From assembly GCA_949742895.1 (NCBI GenBank), contig CATJRT010000284.1:1-8120 (forward strand): DNA of 8,120 bases. The letters are read 5' to 3'. The DNA is from an uncultured Eubacteriales bacterium (lineage in GTDB: Bacteria; Bacillota_A; Clostridia; Oscillospirales; Oscillospiraceae). The translations under genes and the position numbers were made by a program. Position 1 is the first letter of the stretch; each line of letters starts with the position of its first letter. This document shows, piece after piece, positions 74-7,566 of the stretch. A model generated the notes under the pieces. It was not told the origin of the DNA. It saw nothing but the letters and a program-made list of their open reading frames with translations, and did no database searches.

Positions 74-799
74 TCATGTTGCGGGGGAGCCGCCGATGGA
101 AGCTGGAGCACTCAGGAGCGCATTGCGGGCGCGGCGCTCCTGCTGTCTGTGGAGCTTCCTGCGCTGCGCGTCCGCTTCCAGTTGGTCGAGCTGCCGCTGA
201 TGGAAAGTGCCTACTGCTTTCTGTATTGGCAGAATGGTGTAGAGGTTGTTGCCGTTCCATTTCATCCCGCACTGGTCGAGGTAGTGGCTGTGTTCCATGG
301 TGATGAGGTGCCGGTCGAGAAGGGTACCGATACTTTCCATTACGGTGTTTTTGGACATCCCGGTGGCGGTAGCGACGGTGCTGTAACTGGGATGGCAGGT
401 ATGTGTCCGGCGATCCTCGATCAACAGCAGGTAGGCGTACACCATGAACGCAGAAGGCGGGAGGTTCAGCAGGAAGATTTCATTGGGGAGTGTGAAAAAC
501 TTCCCGCTTTCAGCAGGCAAAAAATCAGCGGTGAGAGAGTATTGCTCTGTGACCAAACCTGCACCCGCCAAGACAGACAGGTGATTCCGCACCGTACCTT
601 CTGACTTGTAGATGCCCTTCGCGATCACTTCGGGGGGGAGGACTTTTGTATTGTCATGGGCAGAGTGGCAGCACAGGTAGGACAGGATCACGAACTCAAT
701 CGGTTTGAGCTGGTATTCCCACACCGCATTGGGGAGCGGGAAGCGATAGTGGCGGGGATCTCGCCGGGGCCAGCTGATGGGAATGCGGTGCTTCCTCAT
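74..799 (-). CDS. Double winged-helix protein, replication-initiator-like, of a conjugative element
   Basis: This 241-residue protein probably binds DNA and may act in replication or maintenance of the mobile element. The N-terminal part (about residues 18-90, containing HYRFPLPNAVWEY and then a region with the helix pair VIAKGIYKSEGTVRNHLSVL) looks like a winged helix. A second one spans about residues 108-185 (VATATGMSKNTVMESIGTLL is its recognition helix region). The C-terminus from about residue 196 is a highly charged, Arg/Gln-rich helix that could be a coiled coil. The start chosen is the ATG at 799-797, which overlaps the stop of the upstream excisionase-like gene as ATGA, with a GGGGG-containing binding site upstream. 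A longer frame starting at 835 would overlap that gene by 40 bases and is less likely. The HYRFP-PNAVW signature is, as I recall it, typical of helix-turn-helix proteins in integrative elements of gut Clostridia. The exact role is inferred. Confidence 0.8.
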   Translation of the reverse strand: MRKHRIPISWPRRDPRHYRFPLPNAVWEYQLKPIEFVILSYLCCHSAHDNTKVLPPEVIAKGIYKSEGTVRNHLSVLAGAGLVTEQYSLTADFLPAESGKFFTLPNEIFLLNLPPSAFMVYAYLLLIEDRRTHTCHPSYSTVATATGMSKNTVMESIGTLLDRHLITMEHSHYLDQCGMKWNGNNLYTILPIQKAVGTFHQRQLDQLEADAQRRKLHRQQERRARNALLSAPASIGGSPAT

Positions 800-1011
800 G
801 GAGCAGCACCCCCTTGTGTATGCTGTTCCACCCATTGAATAAATTTCTCTTTGGGGACTACTAATCGGTTGCCGATCTTTAGAACCGAGAAGTCTGCCTC
901 ATGCAATAATTCGTAGCTGCTGGACGGTGCAATACCCAGCACCTTCGCCACTGTTTCTGCGTTGAGAAAGAGCGGCAGATCATCGTAACTTTTGTACTCA
1001 GAAATTTTCAT
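796..1011 (-). CDS. Excisionase-like MerR/AlpA-type DNA-binding protein
   Basis: This 71-residue protein has the layout of small winged helix-turn-helix proteins of the excisionase (Xis)/AlpA class. A helix-turn-helix (LFLNAETVAKVLGIAPSSSYELL, about residues 14-37) is followed by a strand-turn-strand wing (LKIGNRLVVPKEKFIQWVEQH, about residues 44-64), the usual ending of excisionase-family DNA-binding domains. Such proteins bend DNA at element ends to direct excision or regulate neighbouring genes. The start is the ATG at 1011-1009, with AAAGGA placed six bases upstream. An in-frame extension to 1194 is open but its low-complexity, arginine-rich sequence and lack of a good binding site argue against it. 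The stop overlaps the start of the next gene (ATGA), so the two are probably translationally coupled. No integrase is present in the window, so a true excisionase function is unproven. Confidence 0.8.
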   Translation of the reverse strand: MKISEYKSYDDLPLFLNAETVAKVLGIAPSSSYELLHEADFSVLKIGNRLVVPKEKFIQWVEQHTQGGAAP

Positions 1012-1212
1012 TTGGAATCCTTTCGTAGAATTTTGTTGGCCACGCACTGTACCTGTTCCAGCCCCAGGATTTTTCTGCGGCGTTTTCACCCTGTTGGCAC
1101 GCTCATCTCGCATCGAGAGTCTTGGCAGTACTTCTCCCAGGGAGTATGCACTCCGGTGGTGGGTATTCAGTTGTCGAGGTGCAGCGGTGTGCAAGAAAAT
1201 TCTGCAAGGCTA
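1012..1212. other. Non-coding region between the divergent excisionase-like and zinc-finger genes
   Basis: About 200 bases with no supported gene. It should hold the promoter of the minus-strand operon, but I could not find a convincing -35/-10 pair. Two symmetric elements are visible: TCTCG-CAT-CGAGA at 1106-1118, a five-base-pair hairpin, and CTCCC-A-GGGAG at 1134-1144, which sits inside a longer imperfect palindrome at about 1127-1151. Either could be a protein binding site for autoregulation of the excisionase-like operon. Confidence 0.4.
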
Positions 1213-1241
1213 TTGACTTTTAAGTTGATATAGGCTATAGT
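1213..1241 (+). promoter_or_regulatory. Near-consensus sigma-A promoter of the zinc-finger (DUF6076-like) gene
   Basis: TTGACT at 1213-1218 and TATAGT at 1236-1241 are separated by exactly 17 bases, each box differing from consensus by one base. Transcription would start near 1248, giving a leader of about 84 bases before the ATG at 1332. The -10 box is embedded in two overlapping ATAG-N-CTAT palindromes, so a bound protein would be expected to block polymerase. Confidence 0.75.
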
Positions 1242-1313
1242 CTATTTGCGATATTCGTATGGTAACATAATCCAAACGTGGTGTCAATAGATTTTATAAA
1301 AAAGATAGTCTAT
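1230..1313. promoter_or_regulatory. Operator candidates: three ATAG-N-CTAT palindromes
   Basis: Perfect nine-base palindromes occur at 1230-1238 (ATAGGCTAT), 1237-1245 (ATAGTCTAT, sharing two bases with the first) and 1305-1313 (ATAGTCTAT). The last two extend to an identical 11-mer, ATAGTCTATTT, at 1237-1247 and 1305-1315. The first pair covers the -10 box. The third lies immediately before the AAGGAG ribosome binding site at 1317-1322. This arrangement suggests repression by a dimeric regulator, perhaps with looping between the two groups. The regulator is not identified; the adjacent DNA-binding proteins or the zinc-finger protein itself are candidates. Confidence 0.5.
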
Positions 1314-1331
1314 TTCAAGGAGTCGGTTTTT

Positions 1332-2084
1332 ATGGCCTTTCCCAAACTGACATTTCCGCTGACCGTGGACTCCAGCAACACAAAATACTGGATCGGGGAT
1401 TATGAACCGTTCCGGTTTGGCGAGGCGGTGACGGCTTTTTTCGATGGTGAAGATTTTGCAGATCCCGGAGAGGACAGGGATGGCTTGATGCGGGATCTGG
1501 AATTGTACCTGAAGGTGTTCGGCAATTATCTCCAGCCGTATATCCATCTGGGCGAGATTACGGACGAGATGCAGCATCGGCTGGACGCAAGCTCGGCGGG
1601 GTGTACGCTGAACTACGGTTACCACTTCCAGCCAAAGTCCGCTACCTTGGTGGAGCGGTACACATTCCCTGCCCTGCGGGACTTCCTCTATGTGGATCTG
1701 GGGAAAGCTATCATGCACGGCAATGCGCCGCGCCAGTGCCGCCTATGCGGAAAGTGGTTTTTCCACGAGCAGGGGGAGCGTTCTCTTTACTGTGAGCGAG
1801 TCGCCCCAGGCGAGACGGAGAAGACTTGCCGCTTGATGGGTGCGCGGGCGGTCTTTGAGAAGAAGATCCAGGATGAGGATACCTGGAAGCTGTACAAGCG
1901 GGCCTATAAAAAATACTACGCCCGGTTCATGAAAGGGAACATGAGCCGGGAGGAATTCAAAATTTGGGCGGAACAGGCGGCGGAGGAACGGGATGACGCA
2001 ATCCAGAAGCTGGAACTGACGCCGGAGGAAACGGTGCGGGTGGTAATTATCGATCAGCTCAAAAAGAAGTTAAATGACCGATAA
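1332..2084 (+). CDS. Zinc-finger-like protein of unknown function, DUF6076-like
   Basis: This 250-residue protein is probably soluble, with no signal peptide or membrane helix. Its clearest feature is a four-cysteine motif, C136-x2-C139-x14-C154-x11-C166, with the flanking pattern RQCRLCGKWFF...LYCER. It resembles treble-clef or CGNR-type zinc fingers that bind nucleic acid. The segment after it (about 168-230) is rich in Lys, Tyr and Arg and looks helical (KLYKRAYKKYYARF), consistent with DNA binding. The N-terminal 120 residues are acidic and not recognised. I recall this family as DUF6076 of gut Firmicutes, whose function is unknown. The ATG at 1332 is chosen because AAGGAG at 1317-1322 lies nine bases upstream; an in-frame start at 1278 has no comparable site. 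It is transcribed divergently from the excisionase-like operon, from a strong promoter with palindromic operators, so a regulatory role in the element is plausible but inferred. Confidence 0.75.
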   Translation: MAFPKLTFPLTVDSSNTKYWIGDYEPFRFGEAVTAFFDGEDFADPGEDRDGLMRDLELYLKVFGNYLQPYIHLGEITDEMQHRLDASSAGCTLNYGYHFQPKSATLVERYTFPALRDFLYVDLGKAIMHGNAPRQCRLCGKWFFHEQGERSLYCERVAPGETEKTCRLMGARAVFEKKIQDEDTWKLYKRAYKKYYARFMKGNMSREEFKIWAEQAAEERDDAIQKLELTPEETVRVVIIDQLKKKLNDR

Positions 2085-2320: not shown

Positions 2321-5302
2321 TTATTCCTGCTCTTTTTTATATTTGCGAATCACCAGGAATTCCGCACCCACCAGCACGAGGGCCAGCACCACATCCGCAG
2401 CGATGAAAGCCTTGACCCAGGCGGGCATACCGCTGTCACTGTACATGGCGTTGGAGTTGGCCTGGGCGTACAGGTTTTCGTGGGCAGCTTCTCGCAGGGC
2501 GATCACGGTGCCCGCCTGATCTGTGTCATGGATCAGCTCGGGGTTGGCGGCGAAGGACAGGCCCTTGGTCAGCCCGGTGCGGATGCCTCGGTTTAGATCC
2601 ATGTAGAAGTCAGCCAGCGGGTCCATGGCGTCGGTGTTGACCGCGCCGTGGAAACCCCACTCGTTGCGCAGGACGTTAACCAGCAGGGCTTCGCAGCTCC
2701 CGGCCCACTCCGCGCCCACGCTGTTGAAGGAGCTCATGACGGCGGTGCACTTGCCGTCTTTGAAACCCTTCTCAAAGCCCTTGAGGTAGATCTCCCGCAG
2801 GGCCTGCTCGGTGGTCCAGGTGCAAACGCCGTTGGTCCGATTGGTCTCCTGGTCGTTGAGGACGAAATGCTTGACGTAGACCATGACACCCTTTTCTGTG
2901 GCGCCCTGGACTTCCAAGCCGCCGATGATGCCGGAGAGGGTTCCATCCTCGGAATAGTACTCGAAGTTGCGGCCGGAGAAGGCACTGCGGTGGATGTCGA
3001 TGCCGGGGCCGTACCAGCCGGTGGTGTCCAACTCGCCGCACTCAATGCCGATCTGGGCACCCCGGCGGTAGGCCAGGTCCTTATTCCAGGTGGCGGCGAT
3101 CATGGTGGCGGCGGGATAGGCGGTGCCGGAGTTGGCGTTGAACATACTGGAAATGCCGGCGGGGCCGTCGCTGTCCACGGACTCGGGGGAGTTGATGGAT
3201 TCCATGGCGGTGCTTTTAAAGCCGCCGTTGGTGACCATGTTCACCATCTCGTCCACGGTGAGCTGATCCAGCAGGGTATCCCACTTGGGGTCGTCGAAGC
3301 CCAGGCCCACCATGTCCGCCAGGGTCAAGCCGTTCTTTGCCCCGGTAGTGGGCATGGCGGCGCTGGGGTCGTCGTAGTCGGCGGCGTTGAAATTGTTCTT
3401 GCACTGGTAGACGGCCATCTCCTCCGCCGTCATCTCCATGCTGGAGGGGGCGGCGGTGGCCTCGTCGTAGTTGGCGAAGCCGTCCTTGCGGCTCAGGTAG
3501 GTCACATGGCCCCGGGCCTGGTCGAACTGGTTGACGGCGGCCACATGGTCGCTGTCCCGCTTGCCGTCGTGGCTGTCGTCATAGATGCGGTCAGCATCCA
3601 CGGTGACGGTACGGGAGTCCACTACGGTGTGGGAGTCGGTGTTGAGGGAGACGATGTACTCGCCCTTCTCCAGTACGTAGCAGCCGTGGCCCAGGTCATC
3701 GTAGGAGGCCATGTCCTCGTAGTCGAAGGTGACGGTGACCTTCTCGGAGGCGCCGGGCTGGATGAGGCCGGTCTTGGCGAATTCCACCAGGTTGGCGCTG
3801 GCCTTTTCAATGCCGCCGTTAGTGTAGGGCGGGTTGAAGTAAATCTCCTCTACGTCCTTGCCCGCCGCGCTACCGGTGTTGGTGACGGTGATTTCAATGG
3901 TGATGGTCTTGCCGTCATCGGTGAAATTGCTGATCTCCCGGTCAAAGGTGGTGTAGCTTAGGCCGTAGCCGAAGGGATACTGGACTGTTTTGTCATAGTC
4001 GAGGAACCCCTCTGCGGCGGCGGTCTCGTAGAACTTGTAGCCCAGGTAGATGCCCTCCACATAGTTGACGAACTTGGCCACGTTGGCGTCGGAGCCGGTG
4101 ATCTGGGCGGAGTTGGAATAGGTGAAGTTGCCGAAGTTGTTGGCGGTGGGGGTGGCCTTCAGGTCATAGACCCAGGTATCGGTGGTGCGGCCGGAAGGGT
4201 TTACCGTGCCGGACAGGATCTCGCCCAAAGCGTCGAAGCCGTTGACCCCGGTGCCGGCTACCCACAGGGCAGCGTCCACCTCGTACTCGTCCACCCAGCC
4301 CATTTCCATCACGTTGGAGGAGTTGAACACCACGTACACGTTTTCAAACTCGCTGGTAACCCGCTCCACCATCTGGCGCTCCCGGTTGGTCAGCTCCAGG
4401 TAGGTTTTGCTGGAGTCAATGTCATCCTCCTGGGTGGAGTACACTACGTCCCCGCCCATCTGGGATTTGTTGTAGGTACACTCGGAGGAGTAGACATTGG
4501 GCAGATCCATGCCCTCGCCCCCGGCCCGGGTGAGAACAATGAGGGCGGTATCGGAGAAACCTTTGGCGTCCTCGAATATGTGGGCGGCGTCATAATCCTC
4601 CATGGTGGGTTGCACCACGGTCCAGTCCACCTCGCCCATGCCCACTACCGGACGGTCCGAGCGGTAGTCCACATAGAACTGGGTCAGGCTGTCGTTCAGG
4701 GTGAAGCCCGCATTTTTCAGTCCCTGGAGCAGGGTGACGGCGGTGCTCTCGTCCACGCTGCCCGATCCGGTGCCGCCGTACATGGGCATGGTGCTGCCCC
4801 AGCCGAACACGTTTAGCTTGGTGTCCTTGCCGATGGGCAGGGGAGCGTCCCCATCGTTTTTCAGCAGAACAATGCCCTCCTCCGCGATTTCCTTGGTGAG
4901 GGCCAGGGAATCGGCCTTGGTCTGGTCGGACAGGCCGCTGGAGTCGGCCAGCACCTGGTTCAGCAGTGAGTACTCGGTTCCCAAGCAGATCCAGTTCACC
5001 GCTACAGCCACCACCAGCACTGCGGCGATAAGAGACTGCCAGCGGATCATGGACTTTTTGGCCTTGGGCAGTTTGATCACCGCAATGCTGACGGCGATGG
5101 CGGCCACGATTGCTACGCCAATCAAAATGAGTTGATAGCGGCAGGCGTAGATATTGCTGTACACATCCTCGATGGAGACGGCCACCGAGCCGCCGAACAT
5201 CAGGTCGTAGACCTTCCGATAGACCACAAAACCGATGACTGCCAAAATGGCGATGACGATGGCTGGAACCAGCCATGCCGGGAGTTTTTTCTTTTCGTTC
5301 AT
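2321..5302 (-). CDS. Membrane-anchored, domain-permuted glycoside hydrolase family 3 enzyme (beta-glucosidase-like)
   Basis: This 993-residue enzyme should hydrolyse terminal beta-linked sugars from an external glycan or glycoside; the substrate is not predictable. Three helices come first (about 7-28, 58-78, 89-108). Next is a GH3 C-terminal-type alpha/beta domain (about 135-385; EEGIVLLKND, and GGEGMD with Glu263 as likely acid/base), then PFGYGLSY (443-450) and a fibronectin-III-like domain (about 455-575). The GH3 barrel comes last (about 675-945): SDGPAG (711-716), GRNFEYYSEDG (777-787), KHFVLNDQETNR from Lys811, and TDAM with Asp891 as nucleophile. Usual GH3 enzymes have the barrel first; the permuted order is known in some ruminal and gut Firmicutes. 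A C-terminal helix (about 962-985) ends in RKYKKEQE. Positive-inside charges place the catalytic part outside, tethered at both ends. The ATG at 5302 follows AAGGAGG by five bases, whereas an in-frame start at 5347 lacks this. It is divergent from the two-component system, its likely regulator. Confidence 0.93.
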   Translation of the reverse strand: MNEKKKLPAWLVPAIVIAILAVIGFVVYRKVYDLMFGGSVAVSIEDVYSNIYACRYQLILIGVAIVAAIAVSIAVIKLPKAKKSMIRWQSLIAAVLVVAVAVNWICLGTEYSLLNQVLADSSGLSDQTKADSLALTKEIAEEGIVLLKNDGDAPLPIGKDTKLNVFGWGSTMPMYGGTGSGSVDESTAVTLLQGLKNAGFTLNDSLTQFYVDYRSDRPVVGMGEVDWTVVQPTMEDYDAAHIFEDAKGFSDTALIVLTRAGGEGMDLPNVYSSECTYNKSQMGGDVVYSTQEDDIDSSKTYLELTNRERQMVERVTSEFENVYVVFNSSNVMEMGWVDEYEVDAALWVAGTGVNGFDALGEILSGTVNPSGRTTDTWVYDLKATPTANNFGNFTYSNSAQITGSDANVAKFVNYVEGIYLGYKFYETAAAEGFLDYDKTVQYPFGYGLSYTTFDREISNFTDDGKTITIEITVTNTGSAAGKDVEEIYFNPPYTNGGIEKASANLVEFAKTGLIQPGASEKVTVTFDYEDMASYDDLGHGCYVLEKGEYIVSLNTDSHTVVDSRTVTVDADRIYDDSHDGKRDSDHVAAVNQFDQARGHVTYLSRKDGFANYDEATAAPSSMEMTAEEMAVYQCKNNFNAADYDDPSAAMPTTGAKNGLTLADMVGLGFDDPKWDTLLDQLTVDEMVNMVTNGGFKSTAMESINSPESVDSDGPAGISSMFNANSGTAYPAATMIAATWNKDLAYRRGAQIGIECGELDTTGWYGPGIDIHRSAFSGRNFEYYSEDGTLSGIIGGLEVQGATEKGVMVYVKHFVLNDQETNRTNGVCTWTTEQALREIYLKGFEKGFKDGKCTAVMSSFNSVGAEWAGSCEALLVNVLRNEWGFHGAVNTDAMDPLADFYMDLNRGIRTGLTKGLSFAANPELIHDTDQAGTVIALREAAHENLYAQANSNAMYSDSGMPAWVKAFIAADVVLALVLVGAEFLVIRKYKKEQE

Positions 5303-5400
5303 GGTGTCCTCCTTGTCACATTTGCGCCCTGTGCGCTCTTTCCTCATTCACTTGTGGGTGGGAAGCCGGCCCAGCGCCCCGTCCAAAATCCTGTCCGCCG

Positions 5401-5479
5401 CGGAATCTGGCGTTAGTTTAGCGCATCACCCAAGTATTGTCACGGAATCTGGAACGAATTGCACGCATATGGAACGAAT
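5401..5479. promoter_or_regulatory. Direct-repeat operator, probable LytTR regulator binding region
   Basis: TGGAACGAAT occurs perfectly at 5450-5459 and 5470-5479, a period of 20 bases or about two helical turns. LytTR regulators such as AgrA and ComE bind paired direct repeats with about this spacing. On the opposite strand each repeat carries a CGTT core, like the GTT of known LytTR sites, although the whole consensus is not matched. A second repeated word, CGGAATCTGG, is at 5401-5410 and 5443-5452, 42 bases apart. Its upstream copy overlaps the first TGGAACGAAT and the -35 edge of the GH3 promoter, while the other sits near the predicted GH3 start point. The downstream gene encodes a LytTR regulator, which supports the assignment. 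Confidence 0.55.
5415..5443 (-). promoter_or_regulatory. Candidate promoter of the GH3 gene
   Basis: On the minus strand, GTGACA (5443-5438) and TAAACT (5420-5415) are 17 bases apart. The -35 box has one mismatch and the -10 box two, which is weaker than the divergent promoter and fits one needing an activator. Transcription would begin near 5408, giving a leader of about 106 bases. The paired TGGAACGAAT repeats would then lie at about -42 to -51 and -62 to -71, a typical activator position. Confidence 0.45.
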
Positions 5480-5496
5480 AACTCGTCAGATGGCAG

Positions 5497-5525
5497 TTGA
5501 CACCCCTTATCTACCCCGGTATACT
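5497..5525 (+). promoter_or_regulatory. Near-consensus sigma-A promoter of the two-component operon
   Basis: TTGACA at 5497-5502 is a perfect -35 box, and TATACT at 5520-5525 is one base from consensus, with a 17-base spacer. The expected start point near 5532 falls directly before the GGGAGGAG ribosome binding site at 5533-5540, so the leader would be only about 17 bases. The TGGAACGAAT repeats end 17 bases upstream of the -35 box, in reach for autoregulation. Confidence 0.8.
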
Positions 5526-5548
5526 GGAACTTGGGAGGAGACGATGGT

Positions 5549-6286
5549 ATGGATATGGAGTGTTATCAGGCCGCAGTGTGCGAGGATCACCCGGGCGCCC
5601 TGGACCTTATCCGGAGCCAACTGGAGGAGGTGTTCCACCAGCGGAGACTGCCCATGGTGCTGGACGCCTATTCCGATCCCCGGATGCTGCTCAAGGCGGT
5701 GGCGGACGGGCGGCGGTATGCCCTGTTTTGCCTGGACATTGATATGCCGGGGCTCAACGGCATTGAGCTGTGCCGGAGGCTGCGCGCGGACGGATCGCGG
5801 GCGCTGGTGGTATTTATTTCTGGGAAGGAGGAGCTGGTGTTCCAGACCTTCGAGGTGCAGCCCTTCCGCTTTGTGCGAAAGAGCCATTTTAAGGAGGAAC
5901 TGCCCCAGCTGGCGGACGACGTGGTGCGGGAGCTGCGGGGGCGGGTGGAGGAGTCCATCGTAGTGGCGGAGCCTCACTCCAAGCGGCTGTACACCTTTGG
6001 CACCCAGAGCCTACTATACATTGAGGCCCTGGCCAAGGACTGCCGGTTCGTCACTGCCTCCGGGGAGACGGTGCTCACTGCCCGGCTCATGGAGCTGGAG
6101 GAGCGACTGCGGCCCCACGGCTTTGTCCGCTGCCACCGCAGTTACTTGGTGAATTGCCGGTATATCTTCAGTATACAGAAGGACACCGTCATCCTGGACG
6201 ACCACACGGTGCTGCCGGTAAGCCGGGGCCGGGCAGACGAGCTGCGGGAGTTGTTTTTTGCCTATGTCAACAGGGGGAGCGCGTGA
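5549..6286 (+). CDS. LytTR-family response regulator (AgrA/VirR type)
   Basis: This 245-residue cytoplasmic transcription factor should be phosphorylated by the kinase encoded next to it and then bind paired direct repeats. The receiver domain covers about residues 5-120: acidic pair Glu12/Asp13, phospho-acceptor Asp63 in CLDIDMPGLNGIEL, Ser81 at the switch Thr/Ser position, and a basic RK pair at 110-111 near the conserved lysine. The LytTR DNA-binding domain covers about residues 138-240, with the typical segments IEALAKDCRFVTA, MELEERL, FVRCHRSYLVNCRYI and LPVSRGR. Length is normal for the family. The ATG at 5549 is eight bases after GGGAGGAG; an ATG at 5555 or a TTG at 5531 within the binding site are less likely. 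The gene is first in an operon with the kinase and divergent from the GH3 gene. I cannot assign it to a named system. Confidence 0.93.
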   Translation: MDMECYQAAVCEDHPGALDLIRSQLEEVFHQRRLPMVLDAYSDPRMLLKAVADGRRYALFCLDIDMPGLNGIELCRRLRADGSRALVVFISGKEELVFQTFEVQPFRFVRKSHFKEELPQLADDVVRELRGRVEESIVVAEPHSKRLYTFGTQSLLYIEALAKDCRFVTASGETVLTARLMELEERLRPHGFVRCHRSYLVNCRYIFSIQKDTVILDDHTVLPVSRGRADELRELFFAYVNRGSA

Positions 6287-7566
6287 TGGTTGAATTTCTG
6301 CGTTGGTCGGAGGGTGTCGTCACCTTCGCCCTGGTACTGGCGACGCTGGCCATGGCCTGCGAACACCGCCGGAACCGGCCCCAGTGGCAGTCCACCCTGT
6401 TGTGGCTGGTGCTGTTCGGGGGAAGTTACCGCCTGCTGGAGTCCGTGATAGGAAGCTTTGGAGTCTATCTGGCGGCTCTGTTCCTGTGCGGCCTGTCCTA
6501 TACGCTGGTGTTCCAGCGGGGGGCTCTCTACCACCGGGTGTGCCTGTGCGTGGTGAGTATGTTCAGCATCGTTACCATCAAGACCCTGGTGCTGTCCGTG
6601 GTCTCCATGTTTTCCGGCGCGGCGGGGGTGGAGACCTCGGGCATGGGGCCCGTGGATTACGTGTTGTTCTATCTCGCCTATCTCCTGTGCGCGGCATACC
6701 TGGTTCGGTTCTACCCGGACAAGCAGACCCATCTGCCGCCCCGGTACTGGATTTTGTTTTCGGCGTCCACAGCTTTCTCTGCCGTCATGATCTATCTGTC
6801 CATTGAGCTTTCCATGTCCACGGCCATGGGCGCCGCCTTTTCCGCCGCCCTCTATCTGGTGAACCTGGGCCTGATTCTCCTCATTTATTACCTTACTTAT
6901 CTGGTATCGGAGAATTACGCCCGGGTGCTCCAGGCACAGGCGGTGGAGCAGCGCCAGCAACTCCAGATTGAACAGATCCAACACACCGCAGACATGATCG
7001 ACCGGGTGCGCCGGGAGCGGCACGAGCTGAAAAACACCTACTTTTACATCGACGGGCTGGTAAAGACCGGGCGTTATGAGGAATTGGAGCGCTATCTGGA
7101 CACGGAACTTAACGCCCGTGTCACCAGCATGGAGGAATTTCAGACGGGGAACGCCTTGGTGGATCTGCTGCTGACCCAGAAGGCGGGGGAGGCCCGGCAG
7201 AAGGGCATACATATCATGGCCAGCGTGACCTTACCGCCGGAGCTGTCCGTCAGGGAAGAAGACCTGTGTGCCCTGCTGGCCAACCTGCTGGACAACGCCA
7301 TTGAGGCCAGCGCGGGCAAGCCAGATGGGGACGTCCAGCTGTTTCTGGACCATGTGAAGGGCTATCTGCGCGTCCGGGTACGCAACCGGATGGAGGAGGA
7401 TGTTTTGGCGAAAAACCCGTCCTTGCTGACGACGAAGGAGGATCAGGGGCGCCATGGCATCGGACTGTCCGTGGTGCGCTCCATCGCAACGAAATACCAG
7501 GGGGACTTCCAGGCACGGTGGGAGAACGGCTACTTTTGTGTGACGGTGATGTTGTTATCGAACTGA
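6286..7566 (+). CDS. Polytopic GHKL sensor histidine kinase (AgrC/HPK10-like)
   Basis: This 426-residue membrane kinase is the probable partner of the LytTR regulator. Residues 1-206 contain about six or seven hydrophobic segments (near 10-26, 37-53, 58-76, 84-106, 124-141, 154-173 and 183-206) with no separate extracellular domain, as in peptide-sensing AgrC-type kinases. A coiled-coil linker (about 208-240, glutamine-rich) leads to the H-box RRERHELKN with His246. The GHKL ATPase part has the N-box LLANLLDNAIEAS (Asn333, Asn337) and the G-box GRHGIGLSVV (388-397). The family motif is usually RHDxxN; here Asp is replaced by Glu247. Translation starts at an ATG overlapping the regulator's stop by one base (TGATG), after GGGGGAG, so the two are coupled. 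No AgrD-like peptide gene or processing peptidase was found nearby, so the ligand may be a glycan product, an external peptide or something encoded elsewhere. Confidence 0.92.
   Translation: MVEFLRWSEGVVTFALVLATLAMACEHRRNRPQWQSTLLWLVLFGGSYRLLESVIGSFGVYLAALFLCGLSYTLVFQRGALYHRVCLCVVSMFSIVTIKTLVLSVVSMFSGAAGVETSGMGPVDYVLFYLAYLLCAAYLVRFYPDKQTHLPPRYWILFSASTAFSAVMIYLSIELSMSTAMGAAFSAALYLVNLGLILLIYYLTYLVSENYARVLQAQAVEQRQQLQIEQIQHTADMIDRVRRERHELKNTYFYIDGLVKTGRYEELERYLDTELNARVTSMEEFQTGNALVDLLLTQKAGEARQKGIHIMASVTLPPELSVREEDLCALLANLLDNAIEASAGKPDGDVQLFLDHVKGYLRVRVRNRMEEDVLAKNPSLLTTKEDQGRHGIGLSVVRSIATKYQGDFQARWENGYFCVTVMLLSN

Follow-up and report, generated by a model that had tools for sequence, protein, structure and literature searches.

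What is a pair of perfect direct repeats doing between a glycosidase gene and a two-component system? The question is raised by the stretch of DNA analyzed here (the window, 8,120 nucleotides), in which a GH3 gene and a regulator-kinase pair are divergent and the repeats sit between them. Given conservation of the pair with one regulator clade and the HdrR-type geometry of the GH3 promoter, it most likely binds the adjacent regulator and activates GH3. On these comparative grounds, we consider it very probable that the pair is the operator of this LytTR regulator, serving to switch on a membrane-anchored GH3 enzyme.

The genes on either side, together with the control elements between them, are collected in Table 1. 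An earlier sequence-only reading had described the locus correctly as far as the observation itself went, but differed in the details of start codons. The GH3 gene probably starts at an ATG that is preceded by AAGGAGG, inside its open reading frame, and the regulator gene probably starts at ATG 5549, leaving an intergenic stretch of 5303-5548.

Table 1. Control elements and flanking genes, with positions in the window
Feature	Positions	Strand	Remarks
GH3 glycoside hydrolase gene	2321..5302	-	Pfam; ORF opens at 5347, likely start ATG 5302
GH3 promoter, -10 hexamer TAAACT	5415..5420	-	33 nt after proximal half-site; no preceding TG
GH3 promoter, -35-like hexamer GTGACA	5438..5443	-	10 nt downstream of proximal half-site
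Repeat pair TGGAACGAAT-N10-TGGAACGAAT	5450..5479	+	perfect copies at 5450-5459 and 5470-5479
Putative promoter-proximal LytTR half-site GCAATTCGT, read toward GH3	5454..5462	-	6 nt shared with TGGAACGAAT copy 5450-5459
Putative distal LytTR half-site GTTATTCGT, read toward GH3	5474..5482	-	6 nt shared with TGGAACGAAT copy 5470-5479
Regulator-kinase promoter TTGACA-17-TATACT	5497..5525	+	11/12 consensus positions; -10 starts 41 nt after pair
Response regulator (receiver and LytTR DNA-binding domain)	5549..6286	+	Pfam Response_reg, LytTR
GHKL-type histidine kinase, multi-spanning N-terminal region	6283..7566	+	Pfam HATPase_c_5; overlaps regulator stop

Both GH3 domains are present in the glycosidase (PF01915, 98.9 bits; PF00933, 90.7 bits) in a permuted order of GH3_C, Fn3-like, and GH3_N, and hydropathy indicates about three hydrophobic segments at the N-terminus and one at the C-terminus. 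Residues E278 and D906, invariant across 28 aligned sequences that include the window, correspond in an alignment to E458 and D242 in chain 2x40_A, which we take to be the catalytic Glu and Asp. Among the 120 best database relatives listed, identity ranges over 51-93%, and nearly all have the same Pfam domains; the best named relative among the matches listed comes from a Candidatus Onthomonas assembly (74% identical), which points to an Oscillospiraceae-like gut bacterium as the probable host. The regulator belongs to the LytTR family (PF00072, 45.4 bits against a cut-off of 30.2; PF04397, 72.9 bits against 22.6) and carries a phosphoacceptor-type residue at Asp 63. Its residues 192-198, FVRCHRS, fit the FhRhHRS motif of the LytTR DNA-binding domain, for which the AgrA equivalent is FFRCHNS (PMC4227749). 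The kinase falls in the Agr class of GHKL enzymes (HATPase_c_5, 67.5 bits), with hydrophobic segments between residues 8 and 210, an H-box-like RHELKN, an N-box-like NLLDNA, and, by hydropathy, no sizeable outer domain. On the left flank of the window (74-2084), a HTH_36 protein, a small excisionase-like HTH_17 protein, and a DUF6076 protein recall mobile elements; a near-match search of the window against plasmids gave no match.

The two 10-bp repeats announced by the sequence-only reading are both in place and perfect, 20 bp from start to start with a gap of 10 bp. The extended repeat is 12/13 identical, and one further match to TGGAACGAAT occurs in the window at up to 2 mismatches (330-339, minus strand, 2 mismatches). 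The same reading had assigned a weak promoter to GH3 and a near-consensus one to the regulator, and both assignments stand: GTGACA-17-TAAACT (minus strand, 5443-5415) agrees with the consensus at 9/12 positions, and the regulator promoter comes within one position of it. With the start of the -10 element set at -12, the end of the repeats falls near -42 relative to GH3, and relative to the regulator they occupy about -82 to -53, also as proposed. A second perfect direct repeat, CGGAATCTGG, occurs at 5401-5410 and 5443-5452 (42 bp apart), one copy overlapping the operator start and the other lying just downstream of the GH3 -10.

The broad LytTR consensus is [TA][AC][CA]GTTN[AG][TG]. Read toward GH3, which is the orientation of the LytTR motif in the window, the proximal half-site agrees with the canonical consensus at 7/9 positions and the distal one at just 5/9. 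This distal score, along with a -10 that lacks the TG seen elsewhere, counts against the operator reading. The two 9-mers are separated by 11 nt and so come within the definition of a LytTR operator as two repeats of 9-11 nt with 11-13 nt between them (PMC4847170). In HdrR-type promoters, 9-nt direct repeats are separated mostly by 12 and in some cases by 11 or 13 bp, they strongly favor a position 10 bp upstream of the -35, and some of the promoters have an extended -10 element; the arrangement was tested for HdrR (PMC6193735). The window is much alike, with 11 bp between its 9-mers, 10 nt to GTGACA, and 33 nt to TAAACT; it differs in that HdrR/BrsR systems are autoregulatory and join a LytTR protein to an inhibitory membrane protein, where the window has a GHKL kinase and a glycosidase promoter (PMC6193735). 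This geometry also bears on whether the regulator might use the pair to repress GH3, which we regard as improbable. The direction of control is unreadable from sequence alone, and AgrA bound just downstream of the bsaA promoter does repress (PMC4227749); here, however, the pair precedes a weak -35, with the spacing that activated LytTR promoters show, and does not cover or follow the start. Activation of GH3 is the preferred reading.

Conservation of the pair in orthologous loci had been set beforehand as the test on which the operator claim could fall. Genome searches with the regulator protein, at E thresholds that varied (1e-30, 1e-40, 1e-45), yielded 19 loci; 18 came from family-wide draws (400, 189, and 397 genomes) centered on an Oscillospiraceae, a Bifidobacterium, and a Butyrivibrio genome, and the nineteenth, L081, came from a genome reached via a GH3 locus. 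An order-wide search at 1e-45 found the regulator in 0/394 genomes, and a further search at 1e-40 in 0/5. The regulators of the loci compared at the DNA level are at most 49% identical to that of the window. Among the 1,390,189 bases scanned for pairs at spacings 19 to 22 (80 GH3 loci, 14 regulator loci, and the window), exact GGWAYGAA-N12-GGWAYGAA occurs 9 times at spacing 20 and 0 times at 19, 21, or 22. All nine exact pairs lie directly upstream of close regulator homologues (the window, L101, L102, L103, L104, L107, L108, L110, and L111), and imperfect pairs occur in L109 (15/16 positions) and in L100 and L112 (13/16; the same as L082 and L096), so that the window and 11 regulator loci carry it. 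The regulator tree places all 12 pair-bearing regulators together in a 13-member clade (support 0.918), whose remaining member, L097/L113, has neither the operator nor GH3; a carboxylesterase is encoded next door to it. The pair is conserved and the claim stands: as a predicted LytTR operator, it keeps its exact 20-bp spacing with the cognate regulator clade, the geometry of LytTR-activated promoters, and its orientation toward GH3.

A relaxed scan of regulator upstream regions (at least 14/16 positions) found the pair at 8/16 close homologues (at least 220 bits), all exact and at spacing 20, and at 4/47 distant regulators. L082 and L096 fell below its threshold, and L093/L109 was missed because the pair starts 329 nt upstream and the scan reached about 300 nt. 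The sequence ahead of the L109 regulator (at 5785) also includes a nearly duplicated segment containing an inverted repeat (ATGTGTTTCATGC...GCATGAAAAAACATGAC), and the operator begins 329 nt before the regulator ORF.

The same comparison disposes of the view that the repeat is a product of chance or of mutational duplication, without function. Mononucleotide shuffles of the 204-nt stretch 5348-5551 gave a perfect 10-bp repeat at spacing 20 in 26 of 200,000 trials and at spacing 19-23 in 107 of 200,000, and other short repeats are present in the window; but the sequence and its exact spacing are conserved in loci from three family-wide draws. Conservation is the decisive evidence, and we reject this explanation as having next to no likelihood.

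Recognition by some other regulator is very improbable. Direct repeats are bound by other factors as well, but in the loci scanned the exact site is found only with this regulator clade, apart from matches at background level, and related pairs differ from one regulator clade to the next: GCAWTTCRTWCC-like in the window clade, CCGTTCRYNCC in L105/L106, and ACAGTTTRTGCA-like in the main GH3 set. In the 19 genomes with regulator relatives, 8/10 exact matches lie at the regulator gene; the other two are at G043:C99 (L144, position 6651, inside a predicted ORF, 6416-7528) and G117:C124 (L143, between convergent gene ends). Allowing up to 1 mismatch gave 29 matches in these genomes versus 12 for a reversed control pattern. 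Across the class (391 genomes), 7 exact matches versus 6 for the control amount to background, and one of the seven, L147, is near an 82-bit LytTR regulator gene, on its 3' side and not upstream. Nothing but the exact matches at the regulator is conspicuous, and the operator site accordingly looks local to its own locus; on the same evidence, a wide genomic regulon was rejected. The adjacent LytTR regulator is the preferred reader of the pair.

A GH3 gene is present in the fetched stretch of 17/19 regulator loci, the other two being L090 (a 3.8-kb contig) and L097/L113. With 337 GH3 matches across the roughly 52.4 Mb of these 19 genomes (about 6 per Mb), a GH3 gene within 7 kb on either side would be expected in roughly one locus in eleven. 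The enzymes themselves are of several builds. Permuted GH3s with hydrophobic segments at both ends occur in the window, L102, L103, L104, L107, L108, and L111, and also in L105 and L106, with fewer N-terminal segments in L102, L103, L104, and L111; those of L100 and L101 are lipoprotein-like with the usual domain order; and that of L110 shares the divergent operon with an ABC transporter whose permeases are of the BPD_transp_2 type, a layout that L109/L152 and L112 resemble by sequence. The common factor across the regulator loci is GH3 itself, with differing builds. A further build is seen in L155 (2541-6389), where a GH3 that carries a cohesin as well as a dockerin domain is next to a distant member of the regulator family.

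Tandem loci offer a related picture. Regulator, kinase, and GH3 follow one another in L105 and L106, and a related pair at spacing 20 lies upstream of GH3 (CCGTTCGCGCC twice in one; CCGTTCACGCC and CCGTTCGTTCC in the other); an extended -10 follows the 9-mer by 31-32 nt. No convincing pair was found at GH3 or the neighbor gene in the distant regulator loci L153, L154 (201 nt scanned), L155, L157, and L113.

A wider set was assembled by scanning with the GH3 alignment, one genome per species, and keeping the best 80 of at least 586 loci. A LytTR regulator is present in 46/80 of these, and in 31/41 of the loci of at least 17 kb. The sequence-only reading had thought the pairing of GH3 with LytTR unusual, and this judgment is not borne out: apart from these counts and the 17 regulator loci above, the pairing had already been remarked on in Butyrivibrio proteoclasticus in 2010 (PMC2914790).

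The canonical LytTR 9-mer pair (at least 17/18 positions, spacing 20 or 21) lies in the GH3 upstream region of 17 of these best 80 loci, versus 2/80 on the opposite strand and 7/424 in coding pieces; 100 dinucleotide shuffles averaged 0.54, with a maximum of 2. An extended -10 (TGnTAnnnT) follows the proximal 9-mer by 31-33 nt at 16/17 of these strong GH3-promoter pairs. Lowering the pair threshold to 14 and requiring the extended -10 at 31-33 nt passes 28/80 GH3 loci (again of the best 80) versus 1.05 in shuffles, and the same composite at four other offset ranges gives 0 to 6; the passing loci score 14-18 of 18 against the LytTR consensus. Relatedness inflates the figure of 28/80, since these loci fall into fewer clusters by GH3 identity (4/11 at 60%, 14/32 at 70%, and 18/49 at 80%). 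The remaining 52/80 promoters lie below the composite threshold and may have diverged operators, other control, or wrongly assigned starts. The signal came from the LytTR-consensus scan of GH3 upstream regions; a plain self-repeat scan of the regulator upstream regions in the 80 GH3 loci gave scattered matches only. The same predicted wiring recurs beside the GH3 family in many gut bacteria, and the pairing is the rule in the regulator branch sampled. Three GH3 genes (L062, L042, and L049) have a good LytTR pair and extended -10 with no LytTR regulator found in the locus; as nearly 20 kb is covered in L062 and L042 without one, their regulator may act from elsewhere.

An operator set between divergent promoters might act on one or on both, and the distances to -10-like hexamers bear on this question. 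On the target side, the distance from the pair to TAnnnT is 28 nt in L102, L103, L109, L110, L111, and L112, 29 nt in L100 and L101, and 30 nt in the window and L108 (weak TACGCT); the exceptions are L104 (19 nt) and L107 (no TAnnnT), leaving 10/12 operator loci at 28-30 nt. On the regulator side, the distance is 28-29 nt in 6/12 (L100, L101, L109, L110, L111, and L112), 38-41 nt in the window (41), L102, L107, and L108, 49 nt in L103, and 23 nt in L104. The target-side distance is the more constant. Distance alone cannot single out the target, because 6/12 loci are equally close on the regulator side; with -10-like hexamers on both sides of those pairs, control of the target promoter only was dropped.

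A shared two-way operator, at which the same pair also controls the regulator-kinase promoter and gives feedback, is a possibility to which we assign somewhat less than an even chance. It would fit the location of the pair (about -53 to -82 relative to the regulator promoter), the six loci with a close regulator-side hexamer, and the other regulator-side distances (38-41, and 49 in L103), which are roughly whole helical turns further; kinase-less LytTR regulatory systems, moreover, are described as autoregulatory (PMC6193735). Against this, the LytTR motif is oriented toward GH3, L104 has its regulator-side TAnnnT at 23 nt, and because TAnnnT occurs several times in AT-rich stretches, some of the matches are chance. 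A LytTR pair (at least 17/18, either strand) is found in 0/47 regulator upstream regions of the 80 GH3 loci, which are distant and mostly tandem, and in L105 and L106 the pair is at GH3, while the 300 nt scanned upstream of the regulator contain none. The evidence on self-tuning, also proposed in the sequence-only reading, is mixed, and it is best called possible.

For the preferred reading, in which the regulator activates GH3, the following sequence of events can be envisioned. A stimulated GHKL kinase would phosphorylate the regulator, molecules of which would occupy the two half-sites, about two helical turns apart and centered near -60 of the GH3 promoter. Bound there, the regulator could aid RNA polymerase at the weak -35, and the membrane-anchored glycosidase would be made. 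The regulator-kinase operon would be transcribed from a near-consensus promoter of its own on the opposite flank; the same site might control this promoter too, or might not. We infer binding, activation, and a signal tied to the sugar on which GH3 acts; as GH3 builds vary between loci, a released sugar is the simplest common signal, though this is a guess.

A broader reading can be sketched, which we put forward as speculative and rather unlikely in its full extent. The window system might belong to a large, unrecognized LytTR/GHKL family in gut Clostridia and bifidobacteria, dedicated to GH3 enzymes of any build (membrane-spanning permuted, lipoprotein-like, cohesin-dockerin, and intracellular behind an ABC transporter), in which operator and regulator clade co-diverge with spacing and promoter geometry fixed. 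A GH3-released sugar would be the common signal, so that the enzyme triggers its own sensor circuit; this choice of signal follows from a kinase without a sizeable outer domain and from GH3 architectures that vary. If true, such a family would parallel, in Gram-positive bacteria, the hybrid two-component systems with which Bacteroides senses glycans.

The LytTR mechanism here is of a known kind, and likenesses can be drawn to other systems. AgrC is a multi-spanning kinase paired with AgrA, as in the window system. AgrA itself gives only a weak match to the regulator profile (27 bits for 3bs1), and the window departs from the Agr system in that its target is a GH3 enzyme and no candidate peptide precursor gene stood out among its ORFs of at least 60 aa. 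AgrA of Staphylococcus aureus is similar in being a LytTR response regulator with the FhRhHRS motif and a site centered near -60 of an activated promoter (PMC4227749). YpdB of Escherichia coli also uses tandem direct repeats: its half-site is GGCATTTCAT, followed by TCC in the first copy of the yhjX promoter, and that first copy, GGCATTTCATTCC (PMC4847170), is closely similar to GCATTTCATACC of L101 and GCAATTCGTTCC of the window. The YpdB repeats differ in their spacing of 21, versus 20 here, and the system is pyruvate-responsive with a single target, the transporter gene yhjX (PMC4847170). The gene pairing itself is shared with Butyrivibrio proteoclasticus B316, with LytTR regulators beside secreted GH3s and a GH3 with a C-terminal transmembrane helix; there, adjacency alone was remarked on, and the words operator and binding site are absent from the main text (PMC2914790). 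A LytTR operator at GH3 promoters was not evident among the open-licence titles and abstract starts listed.

Gut Clostridia have many two-component systems of unknown purpose, and one LytTR branch can now be tied to one enzyme family. With an operator sequence and a promoter geometry supplied, targets become predictable from sequence, and the signal can be searched for with simple reporters. The comparison suggests that, in two phyla, LytTR control extends to surface glycan use and is not confined to peptide signaling and bacteriocins. A further arrangement is seen in Bifidobacterium aerophilum (L043, 1315-16432), where two regulator-kinase pairs are interleaved with three GH3 genes in a 15-kb stretch.
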